NCBI GenBank assembly: GCA_903872505.1
Contig: CAIQKV010000056.1
Coordinates: 1-64,000 of the forward strand
Origin: an uncultured Opitutia bacterium
GTDB taxonomy: Bacteria; Verrucomicrobiota; Verrucomicrobiia; Opitutales; Opitutaceae
Direction: 5' to 3'
Length of the DNA: 64,000 nt
In this document: in pieces, positions 32,251-49,838 of the stretch
How the letters are laid out: every line of letters begins with the position of its first letter
Numbering within the stretch: position 1 is the stretch's first letter
The notes under the pieces: generated by a model
The model's database searches: none
The model's input: only the letters and a program-made list of their open reading frames with translations
What the model was told of the DNA's origin: nothing
Made by a program: the position numbers and the translations under genes

Positions 32251-33435
32251 TCAGGCGGCCGGCAGCGTGAAGTAGAACGCCGCGCCCTGTCCCAGCTCGC
32301 TTTCCACGCGGACTTCGCCGCCGTGGGCCTGGACGGCGTGCTTCACGATGGCGAGGCCGAGGCCGGTGCCGCCCTGCTCACGGGACCGGGCCTTGTCCAC
32401 GCGGTAGAACCGCTCGAACACCCGGGCCAGCGCCTCGGGCGGAATGCCGGGGCCGTCGTCGCGCACGCAGACCTCGAGCCAGCCGCCGGCCTTCGCCCCG
32501 GCGCTCACGGTCAGGCTGCCGCCCGGGCGGCCATACTTGATGCCATTGTCCACGAGGTTGGAGAGCACCTGCCGCAGCCGGTCCGAATCAACCTTCGCCG
32601 TCAGCCCGTCGGGAATGGCGTTTTCCAGCCGGACCTCGCGGGCCTGGGCGCGTTTCGCGAGGTCGTCGAAGACCTCCTGCACGGCGGCGCGCACCGGCGC
32701 GGGTTGCGGATGCAGGACCAGCCGGCCCGAATCCAGCTGCGCGAGCAGCAGCAGGTCATCGATCAGCAGCGTGAGCCGGTCGGCGTGGCGGTCGATGATC
32801 GCGAGCAGCCGGTCCAGCGCGGCGGGATCGGACTTGGTGCCGTCGAGCAGCGTCTCGGCCGCGCTCTTGATCAACGAGAGCGGCGTGCGCAGCTCGTGGC
32901 TGACGTTGGCGACAAATTCCTGCCGGGCGCCCTCGAGTTCCCGCAGCCGCGTCAGGTCGTGAAACACCAGCATCGCGCCGGTACCGGTGCCGGCGGCGTC
33001 GTGCAGGCCGATCGCGTTGACCTGGAGTACGCATGGCTGCAATCCCTCGAGCCGCAGCTCGTGGTCAAGAATGGCCGCCTCCGCGCCAAGCCGGGTCACC
33101 AGCGCCGCGACCTCGTGGTGGCGGACCGCCTCGAGCAGCGTGCAGCCCACCATCTGACGGGAAAATCCGAACAGCGTCTCGGCGGCACGGTTGGACAGGG
33201 CAATGCGCCCGCGCGTATCCAGCACGATGAGGCCGTCAACCATGCTGTCCAGCAGCGTCTCGAGCCGGCGCTGGTGGCCAGCGAGTTCCTCGTTGTGCCT
33301 GACCTTCAGTGCCGCGAGCGCGGTGGCGTGGGCCGACGACTCCGCGGTGCGCAGGCGGCGGACGCGCCACCAGGCAACGAGGGCGGCGAGGGCGGCAACG
33401 GCGGCAACGGCGAGGAGGAGGGTCACGGCAGGCAA
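32251..33435 (-). CDS. phoR: Phosphate regulon sensor histidine kinase PhoR
   Basis: About 394 residues. One N-terminal membrane helix, a PAS domain (LLDSMVDGLIVLDTRGRIALSNRAAETLFGF), HisKA with phospho-His in NVSHELRTPLSLIKSAAETLLDG, and the ATPase domain with N box LVDNGIKYG, DDGPGIPPE, RVFERFYRVDKARS and GGTGLGLAIVKH. The start is uncertain: TTG at 33435 is the best placed after the phoB stop; GTG at 33426 is an alternative, and there is no ATG before the helix. It is the last gene of the Pst operon. Confidence 0.93.
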   Translation of the reverse strand: MPAVTLLLAVAAVAALAALVAWWRVRRLRTAESSAHATALAALKVRHNEELAGHQRRLETLLDSMVDGLIVLDTRGRIALSNRAAETLFGFSRQMVGCTLLEAVRHHEVAALVTRLGAEAAILDHELRLEGLQPCVLQVNAIGLHDAAGTGTGAMLVFHDLTRLRELEGARQEFVANVSHELRTPLSLIKSAAETLLDGTKSDPAALDRLLAIIDRHADRLTLLIDDLLLLAQLDSGRLVLHPQPAPVRAAVQEVFDDLAKRAQAREVRLENAIPDGLTAKVDSDRLRQVLSNLVDNGIKYGRPGGSLTVSAGAKAGGWLEVCVRDDGPGIPPEALARVFERFYRVDKARSREQGGTGLGLAIVKHAVQAHGGEVRVESELGQGAAFYFTLPAA

Positions 33436-33451
33436 TGAGAACGCCTGCCGC

Positions 33452-34138
33452 TCACGAGTCAGCCTTGAAACGATAACCGACGCCCCGGATCGTCTCGAGG
33501 TAGCCCGCCGCCGCACCGATCTTCTCGCGCAACCGGCGCATGTGGGTGTCGACCGTGCGGGTGTCGATGGCCGCCTCGTAGCCCCAGACGTCCTGCAGGA
33601 GTCGTTCCCGCGACTGCACCCGGCCGCGGCGCCGGGCCAGCAGGGCGAGCAGGTTGAACTCCGTGGCGGTGAGCGTCACGGCCTTGCCGCCAACGCGCGC
33701 CGCATGGCGCGGGATGTCGATCTCGAGCACGCCGAGCTGAAGCTGGTCGCCGGGCTCATCGGCGGCCTTGATCCGCTTGAGCAGCTTGCGGATGCGCAGC
33801 ACCAGCTCGCGCGGGCTGTAGGGCTTGGTGACGTAATCGTCGGCCCCGAGTTCGAGGCCGACCACGCGGTCCATTTCGGCGGCCTTGGCGGTCAGCATGA
33901 GGACGGGGATGCCCGCCGTGGCCGGATCGCGCCGCATGAGCTTGCAGACCTCGAGACCGTCGAGCTCGGGCAGCATCAGGTCGAGCACGACGAGGTCGGG
34001 CCGCTCGGCGCGCACGGCGGCGAGCGCCTTCAGCCCGTCGGTGGCGAAAATCGGCGCGAATCCGGCCTCGCGCAGCTTGAACCCGAGCACCTCGAGTGCG
34101 TCGAGTTCGTCGTCGACCACCAGGATCTTAGGTTTCAT
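33452..34138 (-). CDS. phoB: Phosphate regulon response regulator PhoB
   Basis: 228 residues: receiver domain with VVDDE, phospho-Asp in VVLDLMLPELDG, Thr in MLTAKA and Lys in VTKPYSPREL, then an OmpR-type winged helix with LTATEFNLLALLARRRGRVQSR and RTVDTHMRRLREKIG. It follows phoU with an 11-bp overlap (start at 34138) and precedes phoR, so kinase and regulator are made with the transporter. It probably activates this operon. Confidence 0.95.
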   Translation of the reverse strand: MKPKILVVDDELDALEVLGFKLREAGFAPIFATDGLKALAAVRAERPDLVVLDLMLPELDGLEVCKLMRRDPATAGIPVLMLTAKAAEMDRVVGLELGADDYVTKPYSPRELVLRIRKLLKRIKAADEPGDQLQLGVLEIDIPRHAARVGGKAVTLTATEFNLLALLARRRGRVQSRERLLQDVWGYEAAIDTRTVDTHMRRLREKIGAAAGYLETIRGVGYRFKADS

Positions 34139-34793
34139 TGGGCTTGGGGGCCGTGTGGCGGATATCCTTCGCCTCGTAAAGGTAGACCACCTGCTGGGCC
34201 ACGTTGGTGGCGTGGTCCGCGATGCGCTCAAGGCACTTGGAAATGACCATGAGGTTCAGGCACCGGGTGATGGTGGTTGGCCGCTCCACCATGTAGCTGG
34301 ACAGCTCGCGGTGCAGCTGGCGGTTGAGCTCGTCGACGTCCTTGTCCCGCGGAACGACTGTGCGGGCCTTGTCCGGCTGGTGCTCGATGAAGGCCGTCAG
34401 CGCATCGCGCAGCATCTCCAGCGACATCGTCGCCATGCGCGGCAGGTCGATGTAGGGCTTGAGCTGCGGCTCGGCATTGAGGTCGTGGGCCCGGCGGGCG
34501 ATGCTGCACGCCTCGTCGCCCACCCGCTCGAGGTTCTGGGAGATCTTCATCGCCACGGTGATGAGGCGCAGCTCGGTCGCCAGCGGCGCCTTGGCCAGCA
34601 GGTGGATGGCGATGTCGTCCACCTCGATCTCGAACTGGTCGATGATGTTGTCGTCCGCCTGCACCTTGAGCGCGAGGGCGTCGTTGCGTTCGACGAGCGC
34701 GCGCATGGACCGCGCGACCGCGGACTCAGCGTGGCTCGCCATCGCCAGGATCGTCTCGTTGAGCTTGGTCATTTCCTCGGAGAAGTGTGTCAT
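34128..34793 (-). CDS. phoU: Phosphate signalling protein PhoU
   Basis: 221 residues, two three-helix PhoU bundles. Metal-binding motifs of the family are seen as DNIIDQFEIEVDDIA and DVDELNRQLHRELSS, and each half has its ERVGDEACSIA / ERIADHATNVAQ repeat. PhoU links the Pst transporter state to PhoR and keeps the regulon off in high phosphate. The reading frame overlaps phoB by 11 bp. Confidence 0.96.
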   Translation of the reverse strand: MTHFSEEMTKLNETILAMASHAESAVARSMRALVERNDALALKVQADDNIIDQFEIEVDDIAIHLLAKAPLATELRLITVAMKISQNLERVGDEACSIARRAHDLNAEPQLKPYIDLPRMATMSLEMLRDALTAFIEHQPDKARTVVPRDKDVDELNRQLHRELSSYMVERPTTITRCLNLMVISKCLERIADHATNVAQQVVYLYEAKDIRHTAPKPNET

Positions 34794-34809
34794 GGTGGGG
34801 GGATGAAGT

Positions 34810-35664
34810 TCAGCCGAACCGGCCGGAGACGTAGGCCTCGGTCTGCGGGCTGGCGGGGTTCATAAAGATGTCACGCGTGGGGGCATATTCAATGAGTTTA
34901 CCCATGTAGAAAAAGGCGGTGCTGTCGGAGCAACGGGCCGCCTGCTGCATGTTGTGGGTGACAATCACAATGGTGTAGCGCTCGCGGAGGGACTGGATCA
35001 GCTCCTCGACCTTGGCCGTGGCGACCGGGTCGAGGGCCGAGCAGGGCTCATCCATCAGGATGATCTCGGGCTCGACCGCGATCGCGCGCGCGATGCACAG
35101 GCGCTGCTGCTGGCCGCCGGAGAGGCCGAGCCCGCTGGTGTGCAGCCGGTCCTTGACCTCGTTCCAGAGGGCGGCGCCGCGGAGGGACTTTTCCACGACC
35201 TCGTCCAGGCGGGCCGCATTGTTCACGCCCTGCAGCTTCAGGCCGTAGGTGATGTTCTCGTAGATGGACTTCGGGAAGGGGTTGGATTTCTGGAACACCA
35301 TGCCCACGCGCTTGCGCAGCTCGATGACATCCACATCCGGCCGGTGGATGTCGATGCCGCGGATCTTGATGGTGCCCGACGCGACGCGGGTGCCGTCGAT
35401 CAGGTCGTTCATGCGGTTGAAGCAGCGCAGGAGCGTGGACTTGCCGCAGCCGGAAGGCCCGATGAAGGCCGTGACCTTCTTGTGCTCAATGTGGAGGCTG
35501 ATGTCGTGGAGGGCCTGCACGGCGCCGTAGAAGAAATCGACATGGTCGATGTCGATGAGCGTTTCGCCCGCGGGGGCGACGGCACTGCCGGGGGCCGCGG
35601 GGATGGCGGCGGGGGCGGAGAGCGGGCGGAGCGTGATCGCGGGTGCGGGGGCGGTGGATTCCAT
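34810..35664 (-). CDS. pstB: Phosphate ABC transporter ATP-binding protein
   Basis: 284 residues from ATG 35664; an ATG at 35688 overlapping the pstA stop would add 8 residues. After an Ala/Pro-rich extension of about 35 residues comes the ABC domain: Walker [13 protein letters not shown]-loop [18 protein letters not shown], signature [16 protein letters not shown], Walker [14 protein letters not shown] and H-loop IVTHNMQQA. The C-terminus ends in YVSGRFG as usual for PstB. Confidence 0.96.
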
Positions 35665-35681
35665 GACGAGCGGGGCGGAAA

Positions 35682-36725
35682 TTACCATTTGTAGCGGTTG
35701 CGAAGCCGGGTGCGCAGCACAATCGAGGCCGCGGCGGTGAGGGCGACGATGAACAGGAAGACGAAGGCGGTGCCGTACTGGACGCGCTCGGTGTATTCGT
35801 TCTGGGGGATCTTCGCGCTGACCACGTAGATGTGGTACGGCAGCGCCATCACGCCCTGGAAGAAGAAGTCTGTCCAGCGGGTGAGGCCCTGCCACGGCAG
35901 CTGGGTTCTCAAGACTGAGGCGGCGGTGAACATGATCGGAGCCGTCTCACCCGCCACGCGCGCGATGCCGAGGATGGACGAGGTCAGGATGCCCGGCAGG
36001 GCGTAGGGCAGCACGTTCTTCCGGATGGTCTGCCACTTGGTCGCGCCCAGCGCCAGCGAGCCCTCGCGGAAACCCTTCGGCACCGCCTTGAGGGACTCCT
36101 CCGAGGCCGTGATCACGACCGGCAACACCATGAATGCGAGGGTGAACCAGCCGGCCAGCAGCGACGTATTCCAACCAAAAAAGATCACGAACATACCGTA
36201 CCCGAAAAGGCCGAACACAATCGAGGGCACGCCGGCGAGATTGAGGATCGCGAGCCGCACGAAACGGATGAACGTCCCGTCGCGCGCATATTCGTTCAGG
36301 TAGACCGCCGCGCAGACGCCGAGGGTGAGCGCGATGGTCATCGAGCCGATGACCAACAAAACGGTGCCGACGATGCACGGGAAAATGCCCCCTGCGCAGT
36401 AAACGTAGCTCTCAGATTTCACGTTGGCGGCGGCCGGATTCCTTTCCTTGAATACCCGGAACTCCTTGTCACCCATCTCCATCTTCTTCCCCTGCCACTC
36501 GAACACGTAGAGCGACTCGGGCGCCTCGGTCAGGAAGGTCGTGTTGACGAACGGCGCCTTGGTCTGGAAGACCGTGCTCAAGCCCTTGATGAAGATGTTC
36601 AGGAACACGACGGCACCGCACAGCAGCACCAGATAGGTGGCCCCGCGGAACAGCCAGAAGATGGCGGACTCCGAACGGCGCAGCGCCGAGGGCCGGGCCT
36701 GGAAATGGTGCGTCGGATCAGCCAT
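35682..36725 (-). CDS. pstA: Phosphate ABC transporter permease PstA, with enlarged periplasmic loop
   Basis: 347 residues, against about 280-300 in E. coli. TM1 ([18 protein letters not shown]) is followed by an unusual 60-70-residue periplasmic stretch (about 55-115, with [19 protein letters not shown]). The transmembrane domain then continues with [27 protein letters not shown] and the coupling-helix region [29 protein letters not shown]. It lies 3 bp after pstC. Confidence 0.93.
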
Positions 36726-36728
36726 GGT

Positions 36729-38330
36729 TCAGCCGATGGAAATCCGGTAGCGGCGCACAATGTGCTGCGCCGCATAGTTGATGGCGAGGGAGAGGAAAAA
36801 AAGCAGGATGCCGACGACAAACAGCGCCCGGTAGTGGATGCTGCCCTGCACGACCTCGCCCATTTCCTGGGCGATGATGCCCGTCATGGTGTGGACCGGC
36901 TGGGTGATGACGGCGAGCCCCGCCGTGAAATCCGGGATGGCGATGCGGTTGCCCGCGCACAGCAGGACGACCATCGTCTCGCCGATCACCCGGCCGAACC
37001 CGAGCAGCACCGCCGAGATGATGCCGGAAAGCGACGCCGGCACGATGATGCGCATGACGGTCTGCAACCGCGTGGCCCCCAGCGCAAACGACGCCTCCTT
37101 GAACGAGCGCGGCACATTGTTGAGCGCGTCCTCCGCGAGGGTGAAAATTGTGGGCACGGCCAGCAGCGCGAGCAGGCAGCCCGCGGTCAGGATGTTGAGC
37201 CGCTCGCTGTACGGAAAGCCCGGGACCCAGGCGAGCCAGGTTTGCTGGGAGAGCGCACGCAGGGTCTGGCCGAGCACGGCGATGCCGAAAAAGCCCAGCA
37301 CCACCGACGGCACGGCCGAGATGAACTCAATGCAGGGCTTGATCAGCCGCTGTTCCCACGGGCTGGCGATCTGGTTGACGTAAATCGCCGCGCCCACGCC
37401 AAGCGGCACGGCCAGCACCAGCGCGACCAGCGAGACCATGAGCGATCCGGCGACCAACGGGATCACCCCATACCAGTCCTGCCAGAAGCTGGCGGTCACC
37501 CATTCCCGGCCAAACAGGAACGCGGAAAACTCCTGCGTCGCCGGGACGGGCCGGCGGTAATCCCAGGTTTCCAGGTTCCGGGCGACCGCGGGGAACCCGG
37601 CCAGATATTCGGCCGTGAGCTGCCGGAAGCGGTCCAGCCGGGCCTGCAACTCCGGAGTTGGCATCGCGGGCGCCGCGGCCACGATCCCGGCCAGGCGCTT
37701 CGCCAGGTCCGCGCTGGCCTCCCGGTATGCGGGCAGCGTGCCGAGGATCGGCTTGAGCTCCGCCACGAAATCCACCGGGGTGATTCCCACCTCCGCCGCC
37801 GCCTGGGCCTTGCCCGCGGCGAGCAACTGGGCGCGCTCGGTCTTCCGGTCTTCCATCACGGTGAACCGCTCCTTGATGGCCGTGGCCTGCTCGGTGAGGT
37901 CCGAGACCAGGGTCCGCAGCGGCTCGACCGCATCGCCATACTGCCCGGCGAATTCATCGAAGCCGGCCAGCGCCGCGTTGGCCGCCGCCGGCGTGAGATG
38001 CTGATGCTGCGTGAAGTGCTGGAACTGGCGGAGCCGGAGATCCGACAGGTAGCGGGTCAACGCCGTGTGGTCGTCCTGCTGCGCCCGGATGAAATCCACG
38101 TACTCCAGTCCCGCCTCGCGGTAGACTTTCAGGTTCTGGCGGTTCTGGCCGAAGAAACCCGCCCCCTCCCGGAACAGGAAGATGGTGATCAGCGCCAGGA
38201 CGATGATCGAGACGACCGCGTTCCCGCCGAAAAACACCTTGATGCAGGTATCGAGCGTCAGGCCAAACAGCCGGAACTTCCCCTTGTGGGCAATGAAGTG
38301 GGCGCTGTCAGCGGGTGCGGGGGAAGCCAT
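36729..38330 (-). CDS. pstC: Phosphate ABC transporter permease PstC with a large periplasmic insert
   Basis: 533 residues, much longer than E. coli PstC (319). TM1 spans about residues 38-53. Then about 235 mostly helical, polar residues (54-287) intervene before TM2 (GVIPLVAGSLMVSLVALVLAVPLG). The rest is canonical: PCIEFISAVPSVVLGFFGIAV and the EAA-like loop EASFALGATRLQTVMRIIVPASLSG, ending IVRRYRISIG. The insert must lie in the periplasm, where it could contact PstS or sense phosphate. ATG 38330 gives MASPAPADSAHF. Confidence 0.92.
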   Translation of the reverse strand: MASPAPADSAHFIAHKGKFRLFGLTLDTCIKVFFGGNAVVSIIVLALITIFLFREGAGFFGQNRQNLKVYREAGLEYVDFIRAQQDDHTALTRYLSDLRLRQFQHFTQHQHLTPAAANAALAGFDEFAGQYGDAVEPLRTLVSDLTEQATAIKERFTVMEDRKTERAQLLAAGKAQAAAEVGITPVDFVAELKPILGTLPAYREASADLAKRLAGIVAAAPAMPTPELQARLDRFRQLTAEYLAGFPAVARNLETWDYRRPVPATQEFSAFLFGREWVTASFWQDWYGVIPLVAGSLMVSLVALVLAVPLGVGAAIYVNQIASPWEQRLIKPCIEFISAVPSVVLGFFGIAVLGQTLRALSQQTWLAWVPGFPYSERLNILTAGCLLALLAVPTIFTLAEDALNNVPRSFKEASFALGATRLQTVMRIIVPASLSGIISAVLLGFGRVIGETMVVLLCAGNRIAIPDFTAGLAVITQPVHTMTGIIAQEMGEVVQGSIHYRALFVVGILLFFLSLAINYAAQHIVRRYRISIG

Positions 38331-38375
38331 GTTGCGGCAGAAGGATAGGCTGCAATGCGCGGGTGGGAGGTGGTG

Positions 38376-38411
38376 AAACAAAAGCCCGCCGACTTTAGGT
38401 CAAGCGGGCTT
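38376..38411 (-). terminator. Attenuator-like terminator between pstS and pstC
   Basis: On the minus strand an 8-bp stem AAGCCCGC / GCGGGCTT (38404-38411 and 38382-38389) with a 14-nt loop is followed by TTTGTT. It lies 21 bp after the pstS stop and upstream of pstC in the same operon. Such elements raise binding-protein levels over permease levels. Confidence 0.8.
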
Positions 38412-38432
38412 GGGTGACATTGTTGGAACGAT

Positions 38433-39239
38433 TCAGCGGATGGGCACGAAACCGATCTTCTCGGCGATCTTCTGGCCCGCGTCACTGAGGGTGAACTCGA
38501 CGAACTTCGCGGCCTCGCCCACGGGCTCGCCGTTCGTGTAGTAGAACGTTGGCCGGGCGTAGGGATATTTCTTCGCAAGCACGGAAGCCTTGCTCGGGAC
38601 GCTGCCCTCGATTGAAGCCACCTTGACGCCCGGTTCATTCATATAGGCCAGGCCGCAATAGCCGATGCCGCTCGGATTCTTGGCCACCTCGGCGACGATC
38701 TGCTCGTTGCCGGCCATCTTTTGCGAGGAGGAGGCATAATCGCGGTTCTTCATGGCGAGGGCCTTGAAGTCCGAGTACGTGCCGGAGGACGTGTTGCGGG
38801 TGTAGATCGAGATCGTACCCGCCGTACCGCCCACCGCCGACCAGTCGGTGATGTCACCGGCGAAGATCTGCTCGACCTGGCGCTTGGTGAGGGTCGCCAC
38901 CGGGTTGGCCGCGTTCATGACCACCGCGATGCCGTCATAGGCGACGATCGTGGGCTTCATGCTCACGCCCTTGGACAGCGCGAGGGACATTTCCGTGGGT
39001 TTGGCGCGGCGGGAGGACATGCCGATCTGCGCGGTGCCGTCAATGATGGCCGCAATGCCGGTGGTCGAGCCCTCGGCGGCGATCTCGAAGGAGACCCCGG
39101 GATTCCTCGCCTTGTATTCCTCGGCGAGCGTGGGGACCAGCTTGGCCCCAAGGGTGTCAGAACCCTTGATGACCAGTTTCTGGGCTTGGAGTGAAGTCGC
39201 GGCGAGCATCGCCACGGCAATGAGGGTGAGTTTGTTCAT
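38433..39239 (-). CDS. pstS: Phosphate-binding periplasmic protein
   Basis: 268 residues with signal peptide MNKLTLIAVAMLAATSLQAQ. The PBP-like fold shows KLVIKGSDTLGAKL, FEIAAEGSTTGIAAIIDGTAQIGMSSR, the VMNAANPVATLTKRQVEQIFAGDITDW block and YTRNTSSGTYSDF, all phosphate contacts in PstS. It has no lipobox, so it is soluble in the periplasm. It follows the porin gene by 39 bp and precedes the attenuator. Confidence 0.96.
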   Translation of the reverse strand: MNKLTLIAVAMLAATSLQAQKLVIKGSDTLGAKLVPTLAEEYKARNPGVSFEIAAEGSTTGIAAIIDGTAQIGMSSRRAKPTEMSLALSKGVSMKPTIVAYDGIAVVMNAANPVATLTKRQVEQIFAGDITDWSAVGGTAGTISIYTRNTSSGTYSDFKALAMKNRDYASSSQKMAGNEQIVAEVAKNPSGIGYCGLAYMNEPGVKVASIEGSVPSKASVLAKKYPYARPTFYYTNGEPVGEAAKFVEFTLSDAGQKIAEKIGFVPIR

Positions 39240-39278
39240 GATTGGATTGGTTTGGGATGTATTTGGGATCAGGGCGGA

Positions 39279-40535
39279 TTAGAAGTTCACCTGCATCTGG
39301 CTGCGGATGCCGTCCGTCTTCGCCTCGGCATGGGCCCCGGTAACCGTGTCCTTGGATTCGGCATGGAGATATCCGAGTTGGAGTTTCACGTCATTGCCGC
39401 GGAAGAGATAATTCCCGCCGAAGTACCATTCGGACATCTTGTTCATCGTGCCGCCGCCGGGAGCCGACCGAGTGCCGTCGCTGATGTTCACCCCGCGGCC
39501 GTTGGAGTCGACGGAGGTGTAGCGGATGACCGCCTCCAGCTTGTCGGTGACAAAGTAAGCGGGCTGAATCCAGTAGGCCGTGGGCTTGGCGGTGGCAGTG
39601 CCCGAGACCTGGCCATTCTGGTTGTTGCCACTCCAATACTCCCCCTCGAGGTCGAACGGCCCGGACGTGACCACGCCATAAACCGAGTAGACCGTGAGGT
39701 TGTTGCCCTTGCCGAGAACGAGGCCGCCCTGGTCGGGCAAATAGCCAACGGATGCGCCAAGCCGGTAGGTGTTGCCCTCGCCGAACTTGCCCTTGTAACC
39801 GGCGTTGCCCCAGTAGGCCTGATTGTTGTTGGCGTTGGAACCCGCGCTGTTGACCCCCGCGGTGCCGTCTTCGTTGCGCTCAGGATTGGTGACCGCCACA
39901 TTGTAGAAAAGACCGTTGTCGGCTTTGCCGCCGGCAAAGACACCGATGCGGTAGCTGCCCGCACCCAGCCGCCGGCCGTTGTTGGCCTCGACGAAGTAGC
40001 GGGTGGCAGGCGAACGTTCGATGGCCTTCAGGCTGCCGGAGGAGGTATCCCATTCCTCCAGGCCGATGGGCGCCTTGCGGAAGCCGATGTCGACCGCCAG
40101 GGCATCGCTCTGGGTCCACGTGATCTTGGCCTCGTCAAACGTGGTGCCCGCAAAATCGTAGTTGATGCTGGAGGTCCAATTGTTGCCGAGATTGGCCTTC
40201 GCCCCGAGATAGATGCGGCGGAGGAAGAAGTGCTCGGTGGAAACGGGATTTGCGGAGGTGCCATCAATCGAGGTGCCCAGGCCGGCATATTGCACCTGGA
40301 TGCGGCCCGCGATGGTCAGGCCGACGGTGCTCTTGCCGCCGGAGATGGTCGAGATAATGCCGGCGCTGGCATCCCGGGTGAGATCCGCGCGGAGATCCTC
40401 GGCCTCTTGGTCGGTGACGATGCCTTTCTTGACCAGCAGGTCGACGAGCGGGCCGCTGTCCTGCGCGAATGCAGTGCCAGTGGCGAGAAGTGCGCCGCCA
40501 AGCAGCGCGAGCCATTTTGATTTCAAGTTGAACAT
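39279..40535 (-). CDS. OprP/OprO-type phosphate-selective porin
   Basis: 418 residues. Signal peptide MFNLKSKWLALLGGALLATGTAFAQ, a short periplasmic helix (VDLLVKKGIVTDQEAEDLRADLT), and a beta barrel starting with GGKSTVGLTIAGRIQVQYAG, typical of phosphate-selective porins O and P. Amphipathic strands alternate to the C-terminal IRSQMQVNF with terminal Phe for BAM recognition. Selectivity for phosphate is inferred from the family and from its place at the head of the Pst operon. Confidence 0.9.
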   Translation of the reverse strand: MFNLKSKWLALLGGALLATGTAFAQDSGPLVDLLVKKGIVTDQEAEDLRADLTRDASAGIISTISGGKSTVGLTIAGRIQVQYAGLGTSIDGTSANPVSTEHFFLRRIYLGAKANLGNNWTSSINYDFAGTTFDEAKITWTQSDALAVDIGFRKAPIGLEEWDTSSGSLKAIERSPATRYFVEANNGRRLGAGSYRIGVFAGGKADNGLFYNVAVTNPERNEDGTAGVNSAGSNANNNQAYWGNAGYKGKFGEGNTYRLGASVGYLPDQGGLVLGKGNNLTVYSVYGVVTSGPFDLEGEYWSGNNQNGQVSGTATAKPTAYWIQPAYFVTDKLEAVIRYTSVDSNGRGVNISDGTRSAPGGGTMNKMSEWYFGGNYLFRGNDVKLQLGYLHAESKDTVTGAHAEAKTDGIRSQMQVNF

Positions 40536-40577: not shown

Positions 40578-40623
40578 ATCATGCCCGCCAATTGTTACAA
40601 ATGTGTGGCGGTCAGGTTACAAA
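40578..40623 (-). promoter_or_regulatory. Candidate Pho-box promoter of the porin-pst operon
   Basis: On the minus strand two exact copies of TTTGTAAC (40616-40623 and 40594-40601) are spaced by 22 bp, two turns of 11 bp. Ten bases downstream of the second lies CATGAT (40583-40578), a possible -10 box. PhoB-type activators bind direct repeats in 11-bp steps that end about 10 bp before the -10 box. The motif itself is not the E. coli CTGTCAT consensus. Confidence 0.5.
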
Positions 40624-40665
40624 CCGGCAAATCCCCCCGCCCTGCCTGCCTGTTGCCAATACCGC

Positions 40666-42444
40666 TCAGGCCACCGGCTTGCGGCGCTTTTCCACCAGCG
40701 CCAGCAGCAGGTCGCCCTTGGCAAGGCTGCCCAGCAGGCGGCCGGTCCCGGGCGCCACCACGGGAATCCGCTCGGCGGTGAACCCGAGGAACATCCCCAG
40801 CGCATCGCTCAGCGTCTGGTCCGGGCCGATCCGCGGGAAATCCTCGCGCAGGATGTCGCGCGCAATGACCAGCTCGGCGAGCTCGGGCTGGCCGAGGTAG
40901 GGCTTGATGTCGTGCAGCGACACCGCCCCGAGGAAGCGCCCCTCGTCGTCCCGCACGTACAGGTTGTTCACCCGCACGGAGAGGAACGTCTGCGCGATCT
41001 CGGCGAAGCGCGCCGCCGCGGGGATGGTGGGCGGGTCGGCCCGCATCAGGTCCGCCACGCGGCCCGTGGGCAGCACGGGCTCCGGCTCCGCGGCGGCCTT
41101 GCGCCGCAGGGAGGCGCTGTAGAGCGACTCCCCCGCCAGGCCCTTGGCCGTGTAGTACGCGATCACGCTGCAGAGCATGAGCGGCAGGATGATGTCGTAG
41201 CTCAGCGTCATCTCGAACAGCATGATCACGGCCATGATCGGCGCGCGGCTCGCCGCCGAGAGGAACGCGCCCATGCCCACCAGCGCAAACGCGCCGGGAT
41301 TCACGGCGCCCGCCGGCCACACCGCGTGCACCGCGCCGCCGAACAGGTAGCCCGCGCTCGCGCCCATGAACAGCGACGGCGTGAACACGCCGCCCGGCGC
41401 GCCCGAGCCGAACGACGCCATCGTCGCGAGCCATTTGCAGGCCACGACGCCGAGCAGCACCTTCCAGACCACGGGCCCGTTGAGGATCTGCACCACCACG
41501 CTGTAGCCGTTGCCGCAGACCTGCGGCACGTTGATCGCGATGACGCCGACCGCGAGCCCGCCCAGCGCCAGCCGCGCGACGATGGGCAGCCGCAGGGAGA
41601 GGAAGAATTCCTCCGACTGCTTGAGCGAGCGCAGGAACAGCGGGGCCAGCGTGCCCGAGAACAACCCGAGCACCACGTACGGGCCCATCTCCCAGGGCGA
41701 ATAGAGCTGGAACTCCGGCACGCGGTACATCACCTGCGCCGCCGTGAGCACGCGGATGGTCAGCGTCGCCACGACCGCCGACACGACCAGGGGCCCGAGG
41801 CTCTCCATCGCGATCGAGCCCAGGATGATCTCCGCCACGAAAAACGACCCGGCGATCGGCGCGTTGTAAGCCGAGGCGATGCCCGCCGACGCGCCGCAGG
41901 CCACCAGCAGCCGCAGTTGCGGCCCGGTGAACAGCCGCCAGCGGCCGACGAGCGAGGCGGCGACCGCCGAGAGCTGCACCATCGGGCCCTCCCGCCCGAT
42001 GGATCCGCCCGAGCCGATGGAGAACAGCGCCGCCGTGCTCTTGACCAGGCTGGCGCGGACCGGCACCCGGCCGTTGCCGATGACGATGGCCTCCATGTAG
42101 TCGGTCGAGCTCTGCGACCGCGTGAGCCGCGAGCCGTAGAGCAGCACCAGGCCTGCCGCCGCCCCGCCGAGGGTCGGCACGAGCAGGCAGCCCCACCAGG
42201 GCAGATGCCGCATCGATTCGACGACGCCGGCGCTCGAGCCGGTCAGCAGCTCATGCACGCCTTCCGCGAGCGCGGAGAAAATCATCGAGGCCATCGCGCC
42301 GAGGAAGCCCGCGAGCGCCGCCCACAGCAGCGTGACCTGCCAGTCGCTCAGCTGCAGCTTTTCCCGGACCCACAGCCGCCAGCGCAGCAGCCGTTGCAGG
42401 CGCCGCAGCAGCTCCATTGCCGGGTCGATGGCCGTATTCTTCAT
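40666..42444 (-). CDS. ClC-type chloride channel or antiporter with C-terminal CBS pair
   Basis: 592 residues. The ClC core has GSGGSIGREGPMVQL (anion site and gating Glu), AYNAPIAGSFFVAEI (proton-pathway Glu position) and GSGAPGGVFTPSLFMG. Two CBS domains lie at about 460-590 (VADLMRADPPTIP and DFPRIGPDQTLSDAL), which often bind nucleotides and tune activity. Presence of the second Glu favours a chloride/proton antiporter. The start overlaps the stop of the PTS-IIA gene (ATGA). Confidence 0.93.
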   Translation of the reverse strand: MKNTAIDPAMELLRRLQRLLRWRLWVREKLQLSDWQVTLLWAALAGFLGAMASMIFSALAEGVHELLTGSSAGVVESMRHLPWWGCLLVPTLGGAAAGLVLLYGSRLTRSQSSTDYMEAIVIGNGRVPVRASLVKSTAALFSIGSGGSIGREGPMVQLSAVAASLVGRWRLFTGPQLRLLVACGASAGIASAYNAPIAGSFFVAEIILGSIAMESLGPLVVSAVVATLTIRVLTAAQVMYRVPEFQLYSPWEMGPYVVLGLFSGTLAPLFLRSLKQSEEFFLSLRLPIVARLALGGLAVGVIAINVPQVCGNGYSVVVQILNGPVVWKVLLGVVACKWLATMASFGSGAPGGVFTPSLFMGASAGYLFGGAVHAVWPAGAVNPGAFALVGMGAFLSAASRAPIMAVIMLFEMTLSYDIILPLMLCSVIAYYTAKGLAGESLYSASLRRKAAAEPEPVLPTGRVADLMRADPPTIPAAARFAEIAQTFLSVRVNNLYVRDDEGRFLGAVSLHDIKPYLGQPELAELVIARDILREDFPRIGPDQTLSDALGMFLGFTAERIPVVAPGTGRLLGSLAKGDLLLALVEKRRKPVA

Positions 42445-45593: not shown

Positions 45594-45812
45594 CCGCTTA
45601 AAAAAGGAGACCGTAGGACGCGAACTAATGCCCGCAATCAAAATCTCACATTATTTGCATTGCCGCGGATTTGCGGAACTTACGCGAGCCGGAGACCCGG
45701 AATCCGCCCCGGCTGGAGGGGCCGAATTCCCGGAAACGTAACCCAATCGCCACGCATTTGGCACCTCAACCAGTTACGTTACCCCCCGTCCAAGCATGCC
45801 ATTATCACCCAT
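45594..45812. promoter_or_regulatory. Divergent intergenic region (SNF2 / lipid operon)
   Basis: 219 bp that must hold promoters for both flanking genes. It has lower GC than the surroundings. I see CGTAAC (45738-45743) and GTTACG (45773-45778) as an inverted pair and CATTAT (45800-45805) as a possible -10 box for the lipid operon. No TTTGTAAC repeat like the one before the porin is present. Confidence 0.4.
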
Positions 45813-46955
45813 GTGAAGCTCACGATCGTCACCGAAACCTTCCCGCCCGAGATCAACGGCGTGGCCATGACCTTCGGCCACATTGCCCGTGAACTTGGCC
45901 GGCGCGGGCATCAGGTGACCGTGTGCCACCCCAGGCGCAGCGATCTGGCCAACGGGGCCGCTCATCCCGAGTTCACTTCCGTGCCGCTGCCCGGGATGCC
46001 CATCCCCGGCTATCCGTTGCTGCGCTTCGGTTTGCCGGCCGGGGGCAGGCTCCGGCACCGGTGGCGGTCCGACCGGCCGGATCTCGTGCACGTCGTCACC
46101 GAGGGTCCGCTGGGCGCTTCGGCCGTCAGCGCGGCCCGGGCCCTGGGGCTCCCCGTCACCTCAAGCTTCCACACGAATTTCCACGCCTACACCCGGCACT
46201 ACGGTTTCGCCCCATTGCACCGCGCCGCGCTCGGCTGGCTGCGCCGGGTCCACAACCGCACGCAGCGCACGTTCGCGCCGACCCCCGAGCTTTGCGCGGA
46301 ATTGTCGGCCCTCGGTTTTGTCGGCCTGGGCGTGCTGTCCCGCGGCGTCGACACCGGACAATTCACCCCGGCCAAGCGTGCGCCGGACCTGCGCGCGGCC
46401 TGGGGCGCCGGGCCCGAGGATCCGGTCGTGCTGCACGCCGGCCGCATGGCGGCCGAGAAAAACTTTCCCCTGCTCTTCCGCGCCTTCGCTGCCATGGGCC
46501 GGGTCAATCCCCGCTGCCGCTTCGTCCTGGTGGGCGATGGGCCGCTGCGGGCGGGTTTCGCCCGCGAGCATCCGGAGTGCATCTTTCCCGGCTTCATCCC
46601 GCGCGAGGAGCTCGCGCGGCACTATGCCTCGGCCGATATCTACATTCATGCCAGCCTGACCGAGACCTTCGGCAACGTCCTCACCGAGGCGATGGCCAGC
46701 GGGCTCGCGGTCGCCGGCTTCGACTACGCCGCTGCCCGCCTGTTCGTGCGCGACGGCGAGAACGGCCTGACCGTGCCCTGCGACCAGCCGGACGCGCTGG
46801 TCGCCGCCGCGCTGCAGCTCGCCACGCAGGCCCCGCTGCGGGCTCGCCTCGGCGCCGCCGCCCGCACCACCATCGAGCCGCAATCCTGGGATAACGTCAT
46901 CGCCCGATTCGAAACGGACCTGCTCGCGATCATCGCCGCCCACCGCCCTTCATGA
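45813..46955 (+). CDS. GT4 glycosyltransferase (lipid glycosyltransferase-like)
   Basis: 380 residues from GTG 45813 (M/VKLTIVTETFPPEINGVA). TETFPPEINGVAMTFGHIARELGRRGH is the start of the SqdX/Agt/PimB-like group of family 4 retaining glycosyltransferases. The C-terminal domain shows VVLHAGRMAAEKNFPLLFRAF, FVLVGDGPLR and the EX7E motif in SLTETFGNVLTEAMASG. These enzymes often glycosylate diacylglycerol. It is the first gene of a set joined by ATGA overlaps. Confidence 0.88.
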   Translation: MKLTIVTETFPPEINGVAMTFGHIARELGRRGHQVTVCHPRRSDLANGAAHPEFTSVPLPGMPIPGYPLLRFGLPAGGRLRHRWRSDRPDLVHVVTEGPLGASAVSAARALGLPVTSSFHTNFHAYTRHYGFAPLHRAALGWLRRVHNRTQRTFAPTPELCAELSALGFVGLGVLSRGVDTGQFTPAKRAPDLRAAWGAGPEDPVVLHAGRMAAEKNFPLLFRAFAAMGRVNPRCRFVLVGDGPLRAGFAREHPECIFPGFIPREELARHYASADIYIHASLTETFGNVLTEAMASGLAVAGFDYAAARLFVRDGENGLTVPCDQPDALVAAALQLATQAPLRARLGAAARTTIEPQSWDNVIARFETDLLAIIAAHRPS

Positions 46956-48082
46956 CCAAGATCCTCGTCCTCACCGCCGGTTTTGGCGAAGGCCACAACG
47001 CCGCCGCCCGGGCGCTCGCCGCCGCGCTCGACCGTGAGGCCGGCCCCGGCACCGCGGTGATCGCCGACATCTTCGCCCTCGCCGCGCCGCGGTACAACGA
47101 GCTCGTGCGCCGCACCTATCTCAGCCTCATCAACCGGGCCCCGCGGCTCTGGATCCGCTTCTACCGGTGGAGCGACCGCTCGTCGCTGGTGGCGAACACC
47201 CCGGCGCTGTTCTTCCGCGAATTGCGCGTGCTCCGGCGGCTGCTCGCCCGCGAGCAACCCGCGGCCGTCTGCTGCACGTTTCCGGTCGCCACGCTCCTCC
47301 TCGAGCACCTCGCGCGCACCGGCGGCCCCGCCCTGCCGCGCTACAACATCGTCACCGACTCCATCAGCATCCACTCGCTCTGGTGCCGCGGCGCCTGTGA
47401 CGGCTGGTTCGTGCCCAACGAGGACTCCGCCGCCGTCGTCCTCCAGGCCGGCCTCAACCCCGCGCGGGTGCATGTCTCCGGCTTTCCCGTGCCCGCCATT
47501 TTCACCGAGCAGGCCGGCGTGCTCGCCCCGCCCGACCTGGCCGCCGGCGCCGCGCCGCGCGTGCTGCACATCATCAATTCCGGCACCCGGCACGCCGCCG
47601 AGACCGCGCGCCGCCTCCTCGCCGAGGAGGACTGGGAAATCACCTGCGCGGTCGGCCGCAACGAGGGCCTGCACCGTCAACTCGCCGCGCTGGCCGCCGG
47701 CCGCCGCCGGCCGGCGACGATCCTCGGCTGGACCAAGGAGGTGCCCCGCCTGCTCATGACCCACCACGTCGTCGTCAGCAAAGCCGGCGGCGCCACCACG
47801 CAGGAGGCCATCAACGCGCTCTGCCCGATGGTCGTGAGCCAGGTCGTCCCCGGCCAGGAGGAGGGCAACTACGAGCTGCTCCGCCGCCACCGCGCCGGCA
47901 CGCTGGCCGAATCTCCCGATGCCGTCATCGCCGCCCTGCGCCTCGCCTTCGCCGACCGCGGCCGCGTCCTGGCGGGGTGGCGCGACGCCCTCTCGCGCCT
48001 GGCCCATCCCACCGCCGCGCAGGATATTGCCCGGCACGTCCTTGCCCCCAGCGCACCGGTCCCCGCCGCCAGCCTGCCATGA
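46952..48082 (+). CDS. MGDG-synthase-like glycosyltransferase (GT28)
   Basis: 376 residues. The N-terminal domain matches the MGDG synthase group (LVLTAGFGEGHNAAARALA, VIADIFALAAPRYNELV, YLSLINRAPRLWIRFY), and the C-terminal half the GT28 nucleotide-sugar domain (SKAGGATTQEAINALCPMVVSQVVPGQEEGNYELL). These enzymes transfer galactose or glucose to diacylglycerol. Starts on the stop of the GT4 gene (ATGA) and its stop overlaps the next start the same way. Confidence 0.9.
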   Translation: MTKILVLTAGFGEGHNAAARALAAALDREAGPGTAVIADIFALAAPRYNELVRRTYLSLINRAPRLWIRFYRWSDRSSLVANTPALFFRELRVLRRLLAREQPAAVCCTFPVATLLLEHLARTGGPALPRYNIVTDSISIHSLWCRGACDGWFVPNEDSAAVVLQAGLNPARVHVSGFPVPAIFTEQAGVLAPPDLAAGAAPRVLHIINSGTRHAAETARRLLAEEDWEITCAVGRNEGLHRQLAALAAGRRRPATILGWTKEVPRLLMTHHVVVSKAGGATTQEAINALCPMVVSQVVPGQEEGNYELLRRHRAGTLAESPDAVIAALRLAFADRGRVLAGWRDALSRLAHPTAAQDIARHVLAPSAPVPAASLP

Positions 48083-49017
48083 AAATCCGCTTCATCGTCA
48101 ACCCCTGCTCGGGCCGCAACGCCCGCCGCCCGTGGCTCGCGGACTTCATCCGGGAGTTCATCGCCACCCGCTCGCTGGACGCGGGGCTCGTCACCACCAC
48201 CGGCCCCCGGCATGCGACCGAGCTGGCGCGGGCCGCGCTCGCGGACGGCTGCGATCGCGTCATCGCCGTCGGCGGCGACGGCACGATGAATGAGATCGCG
48301 CAGGCGCTGCTGCACTCGCCCGCCGCCCTCGGCCTCGTGCCCTGCGGCTCGGGCAACGGCCTCGCCCTGCATCTCGGCATTCCCACCGGCCTCCGCGACG
48401 CCCTCGCGCTGGCGGCCGACGAGGCCGCCCGCGTCGCGGCGATCGACACGGGCACGGCCAACGGCCGCCCGTTTTTCAACGCGATGGGCAGCGGGTTCGA
48501 CGCCGAGATCAGCCGCCGCTTCAACCGGCTCGCCCGCCGCGGACTCGCGGCCTACGCCCGCACCGGCCTCTCCGCCTTCCGGGCCCGCCGGTCCGAGTGG
48601 ACCGTGATCCACGGGGGCGGTCGCTCCGAGGCGCTGCACACGCTGCTCGTCGCCGTCGCCAACTCCGACCAGTACGGCAACGGCGCCCGCATCGCGCCCG
48701 GCGCGCGCGTCGACGACGGCCAGCTTGACCTCGTCGCCGTGCGGCCCGTCGGGATCGCCGGGGCGACCCCGCTCATCGCCCGGCTGTTCCTGGGCAAGAT
48801 CTCCGGCAGTCCGCAGGTGTTCCGCCTCCGCGGCGCGCGCTTCCTCATCGAGCGGGTCGGTCCCGGCTTGATCCACACTGACGGCGAGACGCACGAGACC
48901 GGCGCGTTGGTTGAGGTCAAGGTCCACCCGCGCAGCCTGCGCCTCCTCGTGCCCGTGGGCACGCGGGTCGCCGCCGCCGACCCCGTTCCCCGCGATTGCG
49001 CGGCACCCCTCCCATGA
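48079..49017 (+). CDS. Diacylglycerol-kinase-family lipid kinase (DgkB/YegS-like)
   Basis: 312 residues. FIVNPCSGRNARRP at the N-terminus and VIAVGGDGTMNEIAQALL carry the ATP/Mg loop, followed by LGLVPCGSGNGLALHLG and the C-terminal beta domain ending in the ...ETHETGALVEVKVHPRSLRLLVP fold. Family members phosphorylate diacylglycerol or related lipids. In this operon it could return diacylglycerol to phosphatidate. Both gene junctions are ATGA overlaps. Confidence 0.9.
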   Translation: MKIRFIVNPCSGRNARRPWLADFIREFIATRSLDAGLVTTTGPRHATELARAALADGCDRVIAVGGDGTMNEIAQALLHSPAALGLVPCGSGNGLALHLGIPTGLRDALALAADEAARVAAIDTGTANGRPFFNAMGSGFDAEISRRFNRLARRGLAAYARTGLSAFRARRSEWTVIHGGGRSEALHTLLVAVANSDQYGNGARIAPGARVDDGQLDLVAVRPVGIAGATPLIARLFLGKISGSPQVFRLRGARFLIERVGPGLIHTDGETHETGALVEVKVHPRSLRLLVPVGTRVAAADPVPRDCAAPLP

Positions 49018-49838
49018 AATCCGCCCTCCGTGTCCGCACCGTGATTCTCTCCGACGTGCATCTCGGCACCTCGGACTGCAAGGTTCGCGAGGTGAACCAT
49101 TTTCTCCGCCACACCCGCTGCGAGAAACTCATCCTCAATGGCGACATCATCGACGGCTGGCAGCTCCGGCGCGGCGGCCAGTGGACCAAGGCCCACACGC
49201 GCTTTGTCCGCATTATCCTCAAGAAGCTCGAGAAAAAGGACACCGAGGTCGTCTACCTGCGCGGCAACCACGACGACATCCTCGCCTCGTTCCTCCCGCT
49301 CGACTTCGAGAACCTGAGCATCGTCGAGGAGCACGTGCACGAGGGGCCGGCCGGCCGCTACCTCGTGCTGCACGGCGACGTGTTCGACACGGTCACCAAG
49401 AATTTCGTCTTCCTCGCGCATCTCGGCGACTGGGGCTACCGCCTCCTGCTCCGGCTCAACCGCGCCTACAACGCGTGGCGCGCCTGGCGCGGCAAGGAAT
49501 ACTGGTCGCTCAGCAAGGCGATCAAGGCCCGCGTCAAGGAGGCCGTCAGCCACGTCTCGAACTTCGAGGAGCACATCGCGCAGCTCGCCCGCGAGCGCGG
49601 CTGCACCGGCGTCATGTGCGGCCACATCCACACGCCCGCCGACAAGATGCTCGGCAGTGTTCACTATCTGAACTCCGGCGACTGGGTCGAGTCGCTCACC
49701 GCGATCGTCGAGCATTTCGACGGCCGCTACGAGCTGGTGGATTTCGTGAAATTCGCGCGCCAATTCCCCCTGGACCAGCCGATGGAGCTGGAAACCGGCG
49801 AGGAAACCCGCGTCGAGGCCTCCGAGCTGGAGGCCTAG
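49014..49838 (+). CDS. PlcP-like metallophosphoesterase (UDP-2,3-diacylglucosamine-diphosphatase family)
   Basis: 274 residues from ATG 49014. The calcineurin-type metal site is complete: ILSDVHLGTSDC, LILNGDIIDGWQLR, YLRGNHDDILASFL, VLHGDVFDTVTK, GVMCGHIHTPAD and LNSGDWVESLTAIVEHFDG. Length and blocks such as HLGDWGYRLLLRLNRAYN match the PlcP group of phospholipase C enzymes that release diacylglycerol from membrane phospholipid when phosphate is scarce. LpxH-like hydrolysis of UDP-diacylglucosamine is the alternative. Its neighbours favour PlcP. Stop overlaps the convergent waaA stop (CTAG). Confidence 0.85.
   Translation: MKSALRVRTVILSDVHLGTSDCKVREVNHFLRHTRCEKLILNGDIIDGWQLRRGGQWTKAHTRFVRIILKKLEKKDTEVVYLRGNHDDILASFLPLDFENLSIVEEHVHEGPAGRYLVLHGDVFDTVTKNFVFLAHLGDWGYRLLLRLNRAYNAWRAWRGKEYWSLSKAIKARVKEAVSHVSNFEEHIAQLARERGCTGVMCGHIHTPADKMLGSVHYLNSGDWVESLTAIVEHFDGRYELVDFVKFARQFPLDQPMELETGEETRVEASELEA

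Follow-up and report, generated by a model that had tools for sequence, protein, structure and literature searches.

The window analysed here, a 64,000-nucleotide stretch of contig CAIQKV010000056.1 from an uncultured Opitutia bacterium of the family Opitutaceae (order Opitutales), carries four intact open reading frames (ORFs) on its + strand, which encode two glycosyltransferases, a lipid kinase and a metallophosphoesterase and which overlap by an ATGA at each of their three junctions. The initial annotation had described four genes joined in this way, and both the frames and, by Pfam, the gene identities agree with it:

45813-46955, + strand: GT4 glycosyltransferase, Agt2-like, a predicted diacylglycerol (DAG) glycosyltransferase with a GTG start (Pfam and NCBIfam)
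46952-48082, + strand: GT28 glycosyltransferase, MGDG-synthase/UgtP-like (PF06925; PDB matches 9wde and 4wyi)
48079-49017, + strand: YegS/BmrU-type lipid kinase of the DAG-kinase family (PF00781 and PF19279; GGDGT and GSGN motifs)
49014-49838, + strand: PlcP-like phospholipase C of the metallophosphoesterase family (identity, tree and metal-ligand residues)

We consider it very likely that these genes form a phospholipid-to-glycolipid remodelling operon of the PlcP-Agt kind under the control of PhoB. The reading draws on what can be observed in the sequence itself, namely the gene identities, their conserved clustering, a promoter element held in common, co-occurrence and gene fusion, and the catalysis and sugar of the enzymes are predicted by analogy with characterised relatives.

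The gene set recurs, whole or in part, across Opitutales. Looking for it in other Verrucomicrobiota had been proposed as a check, and among the 44 of 52 named Opitutae loci that could be scored, 28 have all four genes on one strand, ten have GT4, GT28 and PlcP, four have GT4, the kinase and PlcP, and two have PlcP without the three partners (scoring required at least 3.6 kb upstream, which excluded as shorter eight of the 52 named loci, six of 36 from the order and one of 26 from the class or phylum; in five loci of low guanine-cytosine content genes were called by length). The Opitutaceae isolate Geminisphaera colitermitum TAV2 (L054) carries GT4, GT28 and PlcP. The 18 same-family PlcP loci listed under genome (G) handles, a list that overlaps with the named loci (L032, G066:C24) so that the counts are not additive, comprise two with all four genes, six with GT4 and the kinase, five with GT4 and a downstream GT28, one with GT4 and GT28, one with GT4, one with the kinase and two with none of these beside PlcP. 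Elsewhere in the order, the 30 scorable loci of other families include 15 with GT4, one with GT4 downstream, one with GT4 and the kinase and two with GT28 downstream; the remaining 11 have PlcP without any of the three partners, which tells against the reading. At class or phylum level (25 scorable loci) the corresponding numbers are 14 with GT4, two with GT28 downstream and nine with none. Two genomes, G113 and G301, have two PlcP loci each. From these counts we take GT4 and PlcP to be the core of the system, and GT28 and the kinase to be variable and lineage-dependent. At the level of whole genomes, 43 of the 103 from the order have both PlcP (E 1e-3) and GT4 (E 1e-40), five have PlcP only, two GT4 only and the other 53 lack both (Fisher 7e-21, with no correction for kinship); in two of the PlcP-positive genomes, G048 and G064, the gene is partial or broken. 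Beyond these loci, a PlcP-like gene from Parabacteroides (L139:3977-5898) overlaps a glycosyltransferase gene whose product has no BLAST match to the four operon proteins and is possibly another partner.

In family f29 of the same class, perhaps Akkermansiaceae, PlcP lies in frames of 646-762 amino acids (aa) in 21 of 22 PlcP-bearing genomes. Nine of these loci were inspected for the glycosyltransferase motif (L183-L189, L191 and L192): in seven, the frame encodes a GT4 with a SETETFGN-type motif, which we take to be catalytic, followed by PlcP, and in the other two (L188 and L189) the glycosyltransferase half is without that motif and PlcP is retained. In the L183 protein (L183:3191-5149, - strand), Pfam places the GT4 domains at 14-330 and the metallophosphoesterase at 387-588, and with this protein as query 68 of 117 f29 genomes give a match at E 1e-40. 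According to the match table, a single uninterrupted frame spans both halves in 63 of the 117, 62 of them at 52-100% identity and one (G188) at 37% with a decayed GT half; of the other five matches, G379 is partial and contains a stop, G398 is split, and G397, G402 and G428 have only GT4. An apparent fusion in G137, a 700-aa frame, was rejected, as GT4 and PlcP there lie in different frames. That two proteins encoded side by side elsewhere are fused in f29 argues strongly that both serve a single pathway.

Evidence for control by phosphate comes from a neighbouring operon and from a repeated promoter element:

32251-40535, - strand: pst-pho operon encoding a porin, PstS, PstC, PstA, PstB, PhoU, PhoB and PhoR (Pfam domains and ORFs; porin by eye)
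45725-45764, + strand: Pho-box-like element in the GT4 promoter, built of 11-bp direct repeats and lying 88 to 49 bp upstream of the GT4 start, with the top score of a position weight matrix (PWM)
40594-40633, - strand: Pho-box-like element in the pst promoter, with the second-best PWM score and never in the training set

Pfam recognises PstS, two permeases, an ABC ATPase, PhoU, a response regulator and a histidine kinase in the pst-pho operon; the names PstC, PstA, PstB, PhoB and PhoR were assigned from gene order and domains, and the porin gene upstream of PstS was recognised by eye. The operon starts 5.3 kb from the GT4 start on the opposite strand, close to the 5 kb given earlier, with a chloride-channel-like gene (40666-42444), a short ORF and an SNF2-helicase-like gene in between (named by eye). 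When the pst-promoter stretch 40594-40623 (- strand) is compared with all 127,942 positions, the closest match elsewhere in the window lies 78 bp before the GT4 start (21/30; next best 17/30). A motif derived de novo from 66 GT4 promoters outside the window (each distinct sequence counted once) scores 34.5 at the GT4 promoter and 26.5 at the pst promoter, the first and second places in the window; an overlapping site scores 12.1, the rest at most 7.4, and the best score in 20 Markov-random 64-kb sequences is 13.0. The 34.5 is not fully independent, because a relative from the same genus is in the training set, but the 26.5 belongs to a different promoter and is independent of training. In architecture the element is an 11-bp repeat array like the Pho box (CTGTCATNNNNCTGTCAT in PMC8528852), with letters of its own. 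An exact three-repeat pattern has three matches in the 3.55-Mb assembly, before pst, before the lipid operon and between an ispG-like and a dnaA-like gene. Before the pst genes of two relatives the PWM score is similarly high (G066 26.1, G080 27.1), and by a simpler motif score the element is present in 34 of 43 named-locus GT4 promoters at 14/15 or better, where 0.0 are expected.

Chromosomal arrangement in other families points the same way. In two f2 genomes (G001 and G074) a single strand carries PstS, GT4, PlcP, a response regulator, a histidine kinase and PstC in that order, the G001 proteins matching profiles for PstS, PhoB, PhoR/PnpS and PstC (PhoB and PhoR under their equivalog cut-offs). 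Further cases are pst genes downstream of PlcP on the same strand (G013), PhoU/PstB tail to tail with PlcP at a distance of 107 bp (L068), PlcP on the strand of a PhoU match and 79 bp after it (G214), PstC-PstA-PstB matches after PlcP (G113) and pst matches about 2 kb from PlcP (G328 and G112). As these arrangements differ, the link between pst and PlcP has arisen, or been retained, on more than one occasion.

Several results pull in the other direction. The PWM scores before pst are weak in four other cases (G013 15.0, L046 14.1, L047 11.6 and L051 15.1), and no element is found by the PWM before pst in L118. The third exact pattern match (G000:C5:11139-11166; L152, L158) lies about 450 bp before the dnaA-like gene (both genes there named by eye), and if one mismatch is allowed the pattern has six genome-wide matches against four for the reversed control, for which reason only exact matches carry weight. 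The simpler score is positive in four of 15 G-handle promoters of family f1 and in one of 19 promoters from other families of the order, and finds the element in none of seven f29 and none of two further promoters; outside Opitutaceae the promoter motif is thus mostly not found. This last observation would fit a constitutive pathway, in which the glycolipid is an ordinary constituent of the membrane whatever the phosphate level and the pst genes are nearby by coincidence, as would the low number of fetched loci with any pst or pho match nearby (14 of 138, overlapping ones included, most stretches reaching only 4-8 kb per side). Such a pathway is unlikely: in the window and two relatives the element is common to the pst promoter, in f2 the GT4-PlcP pair sits inside the pst-pho operon, and several further arrangements bring pst genes next to PlcP. 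Judged by the pst-promoter element, the lipid operon would belong to the Pho regulon in the window and its near relatives, and it is very probably under Pho control. The link to phosphate, for which the initial annotation had proximity alone, is strengthened by the common element, the f2 insertion and the additional pst adjacencies.

The first enzyme, which has the Pfam domains Glyco_transf_4 (2.6e-29) and Glycos_transf_1, has its best relative in a plasmid collection in a Pseudomonas aeruginosa record, directly after cerN, a gene for a phosphocholine-specific phospholipase C, and plcR; from its gene order we take this relative to be PA0842, that is Agt2, a UDP-GlcA:diacylglycerol glucuronosyltransferase. 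Identity to this Agt2 candidate is 45% over 373 aa, compared with 34% over 306 aa to Agt1, and in a tree of 45 rows the Agt2 row and one from Acinetobacter baumannii fall within the Opitutales GT4 group (89/98), with the Agt1 kind separate. In vitro, Agt2 converts DAG to glucuronosyl-DAG with some use of UDP-glucose, and Agt1 makes glucosyl-DAG (PMC8528852), so that the main GT4 product is predicted by analogy to be glucuronosyl-DAG and/or glucosyl-DAG. This assignment has to be set against three observations: the deeper forks of the tree are weakly supported; the NDP-sugar dehydrogenase family, with two matches in the genome, also matches 14 of 14 control genomes and is not UDP-glucuronate-specific; and the top NCBIfam score of GT4 is that for GlcNAc-phosphatidylglycerol synthase, at 138 of 480 bits far under the cut-off. 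The last of these, together with weak matches of the kinase to sphingosine kinase (about 3e-6), would suit an operon in which GT4 acts on phosphatidylglycerol or another phospholipid in place of DAG, and the kinase on a glycolipid or sphingoid base. We find this improbable, given that the nearest characterised relative found for GT4 is the Agt2 candidate and that GT4 is paired or fused with a DAG-releasing enzyme. The A. baumannii relative (L148:3854-5728) adjoins a gene for a PAP2-type phosphatase, which could supply DAG in place of PlcP.

As to the metallophosphoesterase (Pfam Metallophos, 2.7e-12), it is 48.5% identical to P. aeruginosa PlcP and 41.5% to S. meliloti PlcP, and 25% identical to E. 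coli LpxH; the two PlcP rows (PA3219 in P. aeruginosa) are those we take to be PlcP from neighbouring genes and papers. Characterised PlcPs share 46-47% identity (PMC8528852), so the operon protein resembles them almost as much as they resemble one another. A tree of 67 rows has a branch with 100/100 support that separates five LpxH rows from 62 rows on the PlcP side, which include the operon protein. The motifs DxH, GDxxD, GNH and GHxH, presumably those of metallophosphoesterase metal ligands, are present in it, and D14, H16, D44, D47, N85, H86, H204 and H206 are invariant in 25 PlcP-like sequences. An AlphaFold model (mean pLDDT 76) has the LpxH fold, which would be expected of PlcP too, and the model does not therefore discriminate between the two. 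In all, the protein is predicted from sequence to be a PlcP-like phospholipase C, as had been claimed, and the grouping with LpxH that had been named beforehand as a refutation of that claim was not found. A function in lipid A synthesis, with an LpxH-type step beside the convergent KdtA-like (Kdo transferase) gene that lies downstream of the operon and in many relatives (named by eye), is the least credible alternative and was rejected. Besides that neighbour, it has in its favour matches to NCBIfam LpxH models, which stay under their cut-offs (41.1/134 and 19.8/190.35 bits), and the place of LpxH at the head of the structural matches (Z 18.3, root-mean-square deviation 4.2, 188 aligned), which reflects the lack of a PlcP structure, as the PDB holds no relative by sequence at E 0.01. 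Against it, the tree places the protein with PlcP, the gene is linked to those for glycosyltransferases and pst, and LpxI, a family that matches in one of 14 control genomes, is encoded elsewhere in the genome above its cut-off. Most PlcP-like genes in plasmid records bear the annotation UDP-2,3-diacylglucosamine diphosphatase (LpxH), and for the rows tested the tree disagrees.

GT28 contains the MGDG_synth domain (1.9e-18; 67.6 bits against a cut-off of 25), and its PDB matches, 9wde (1.1e-21) and MGD1, 4wyi (2.9e-17), are to enzymes of the UgtP type and to plant MGDG synthase. It has its Pfam family in common with UgtP/YpfP and MGDG synthase, but falls well below the NCBIfam equivalog cut-off for UgtP, the diglucosyl-DAG synthase (148.3/500 bits). 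In family f19 (G019, G068 and G093; loci L115, L116 and L123) a GT28 gene follows PlcP directly, the G019 protein being MGDG_synth by Pfam, and no GT4 match is found at E 1e-40 in these three genomes. A PlcP-GT28 pair without a GT4 match suggests that GT28 can glycosylate DAG itself, and in f19 it may replace the Agt-type enzyme. In the operon GT28 would either add a second sugar to the first glycolipid or use DAG as its own acceptor.

The kinase has both DAGK_cat (1.9e-26) and YegS_C over the Pfam cut-off and scores barely under that of TIGR00147 (118.5 against 118.65 bits). It is the sole DAGK_cat match in the genome (94.8% complete), and we considered whether it might be the only diacylglycerol kinase type there; this was rejected, as a DgkA-type kinase is also encoded, which makes the operon kinase an addition and not the only route back to phosphatidate. 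The initial annotation had further proposed a complete and reversible route, which is not borne out: a diacylglycerol kinase returns DAG to phosphatidate but strips no sugar, and the genome has the DgkA-type kinase as well.

The principle of PlcP working with Agt is known. In the proteobacterial plcP-agt operon (SAR11, Erythrobacter, Methylosinus and P. aeruginosa PA3219-PA3218), PlcP and a DAG glycosyltransferase form an operon-like pair, as here, which has also been reported in PMC9239053; Pho boxes are reported to precede such clusters (PMC4796936, PMC8528852). The present operon differs in its GT4, which is nearer Agt2 than Agt1 and precedes plcP, in the addition of GT28 and lipid-kinase genes and in its verrucomicrobial host; in P. 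aeruginosa the gene taken to be Agt2 is apart from plcP and follows a phospholipase C gene and plcR. Marine bacteria are described in which several glycosyltransferase genes come after plcP (PMC4796936, types 3 and 5; compare L146, Fuscovulum), but in the types of that paper one of the enzymes makes di- and triglycosyl-DAG, and here the second enzyme is a GT28. PlcP and DagK rise together at low phosphate in Pseudomonas putida BIRD-1, with no common operon reported in the accessible part of the paper (PMC5082522), in contrast to the one operon found here. Among Verrucomicrobiota, PlcP is present in a single-cell genome (PMC4796936) and is given as absent from methanotrophs (PMC9239053). Neither the four-gene set nor the GT4-PlcP fusion was found described in the accessible literature, most subscription papers and supplements lying outside the search, and nothing relevant was found on Opitutaceae polar lipids or on Akkermansia with PlcP. 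Within that search the earlier statement of novelty holds for the four-gene cluster in Verrucomicrobiota, and it was too broad otherwise, plcP with several glycosyltransferases (PMC4796936) and a responsive PlcP and DagK (PMC5082522) being known; the four-gene combination and the fusion are apparently new.

We propose that at low phosphate PhoB would bind the repeat array upstream of the GT4 gene. PlcP would remove the phospho-head from phospholipids, leaving DAG in the membrane, to which the Agt2-like GT4 would add glucuronic acid and/or glucose; GT28 would form a second glycolipid, either built on the first or made directly from DAG, and the kinase would act as a safety valve that turns unused DAG into phosphatidate. 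In this scheme, binding by PhoB, the point at which GT28 acts and the substrate of the kinase are inferred only. More tentatively, and as a possibility we do not favour outright, Verrucomicrobiota may have evolved their own branch of this conversion around an Agt2-like GT4, in which the f29 fusion, as a bifunctional protein, would hand DAG from site to site without free release, and the unfused system of Opitutaceae would have added a second glycosyltransferase and a kinase for leaking DAG.

Verrucomicrobiota are common in lakes, soils and guts, and the operon would extend to them a phosphate-driven membrane remodelling that has been studied mainly in proteobacteria. The placement of these proteins suggests that the annotation 'UDP-2,3-diacylglucosamine diphosphatase' on such genes is misleading in many records. 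The element in the GT4 promoter is directly testable, and the f29 fusion, which links the two activities on sequence evidence alone, offers a single protein with which to approach the question of DAG channelling.

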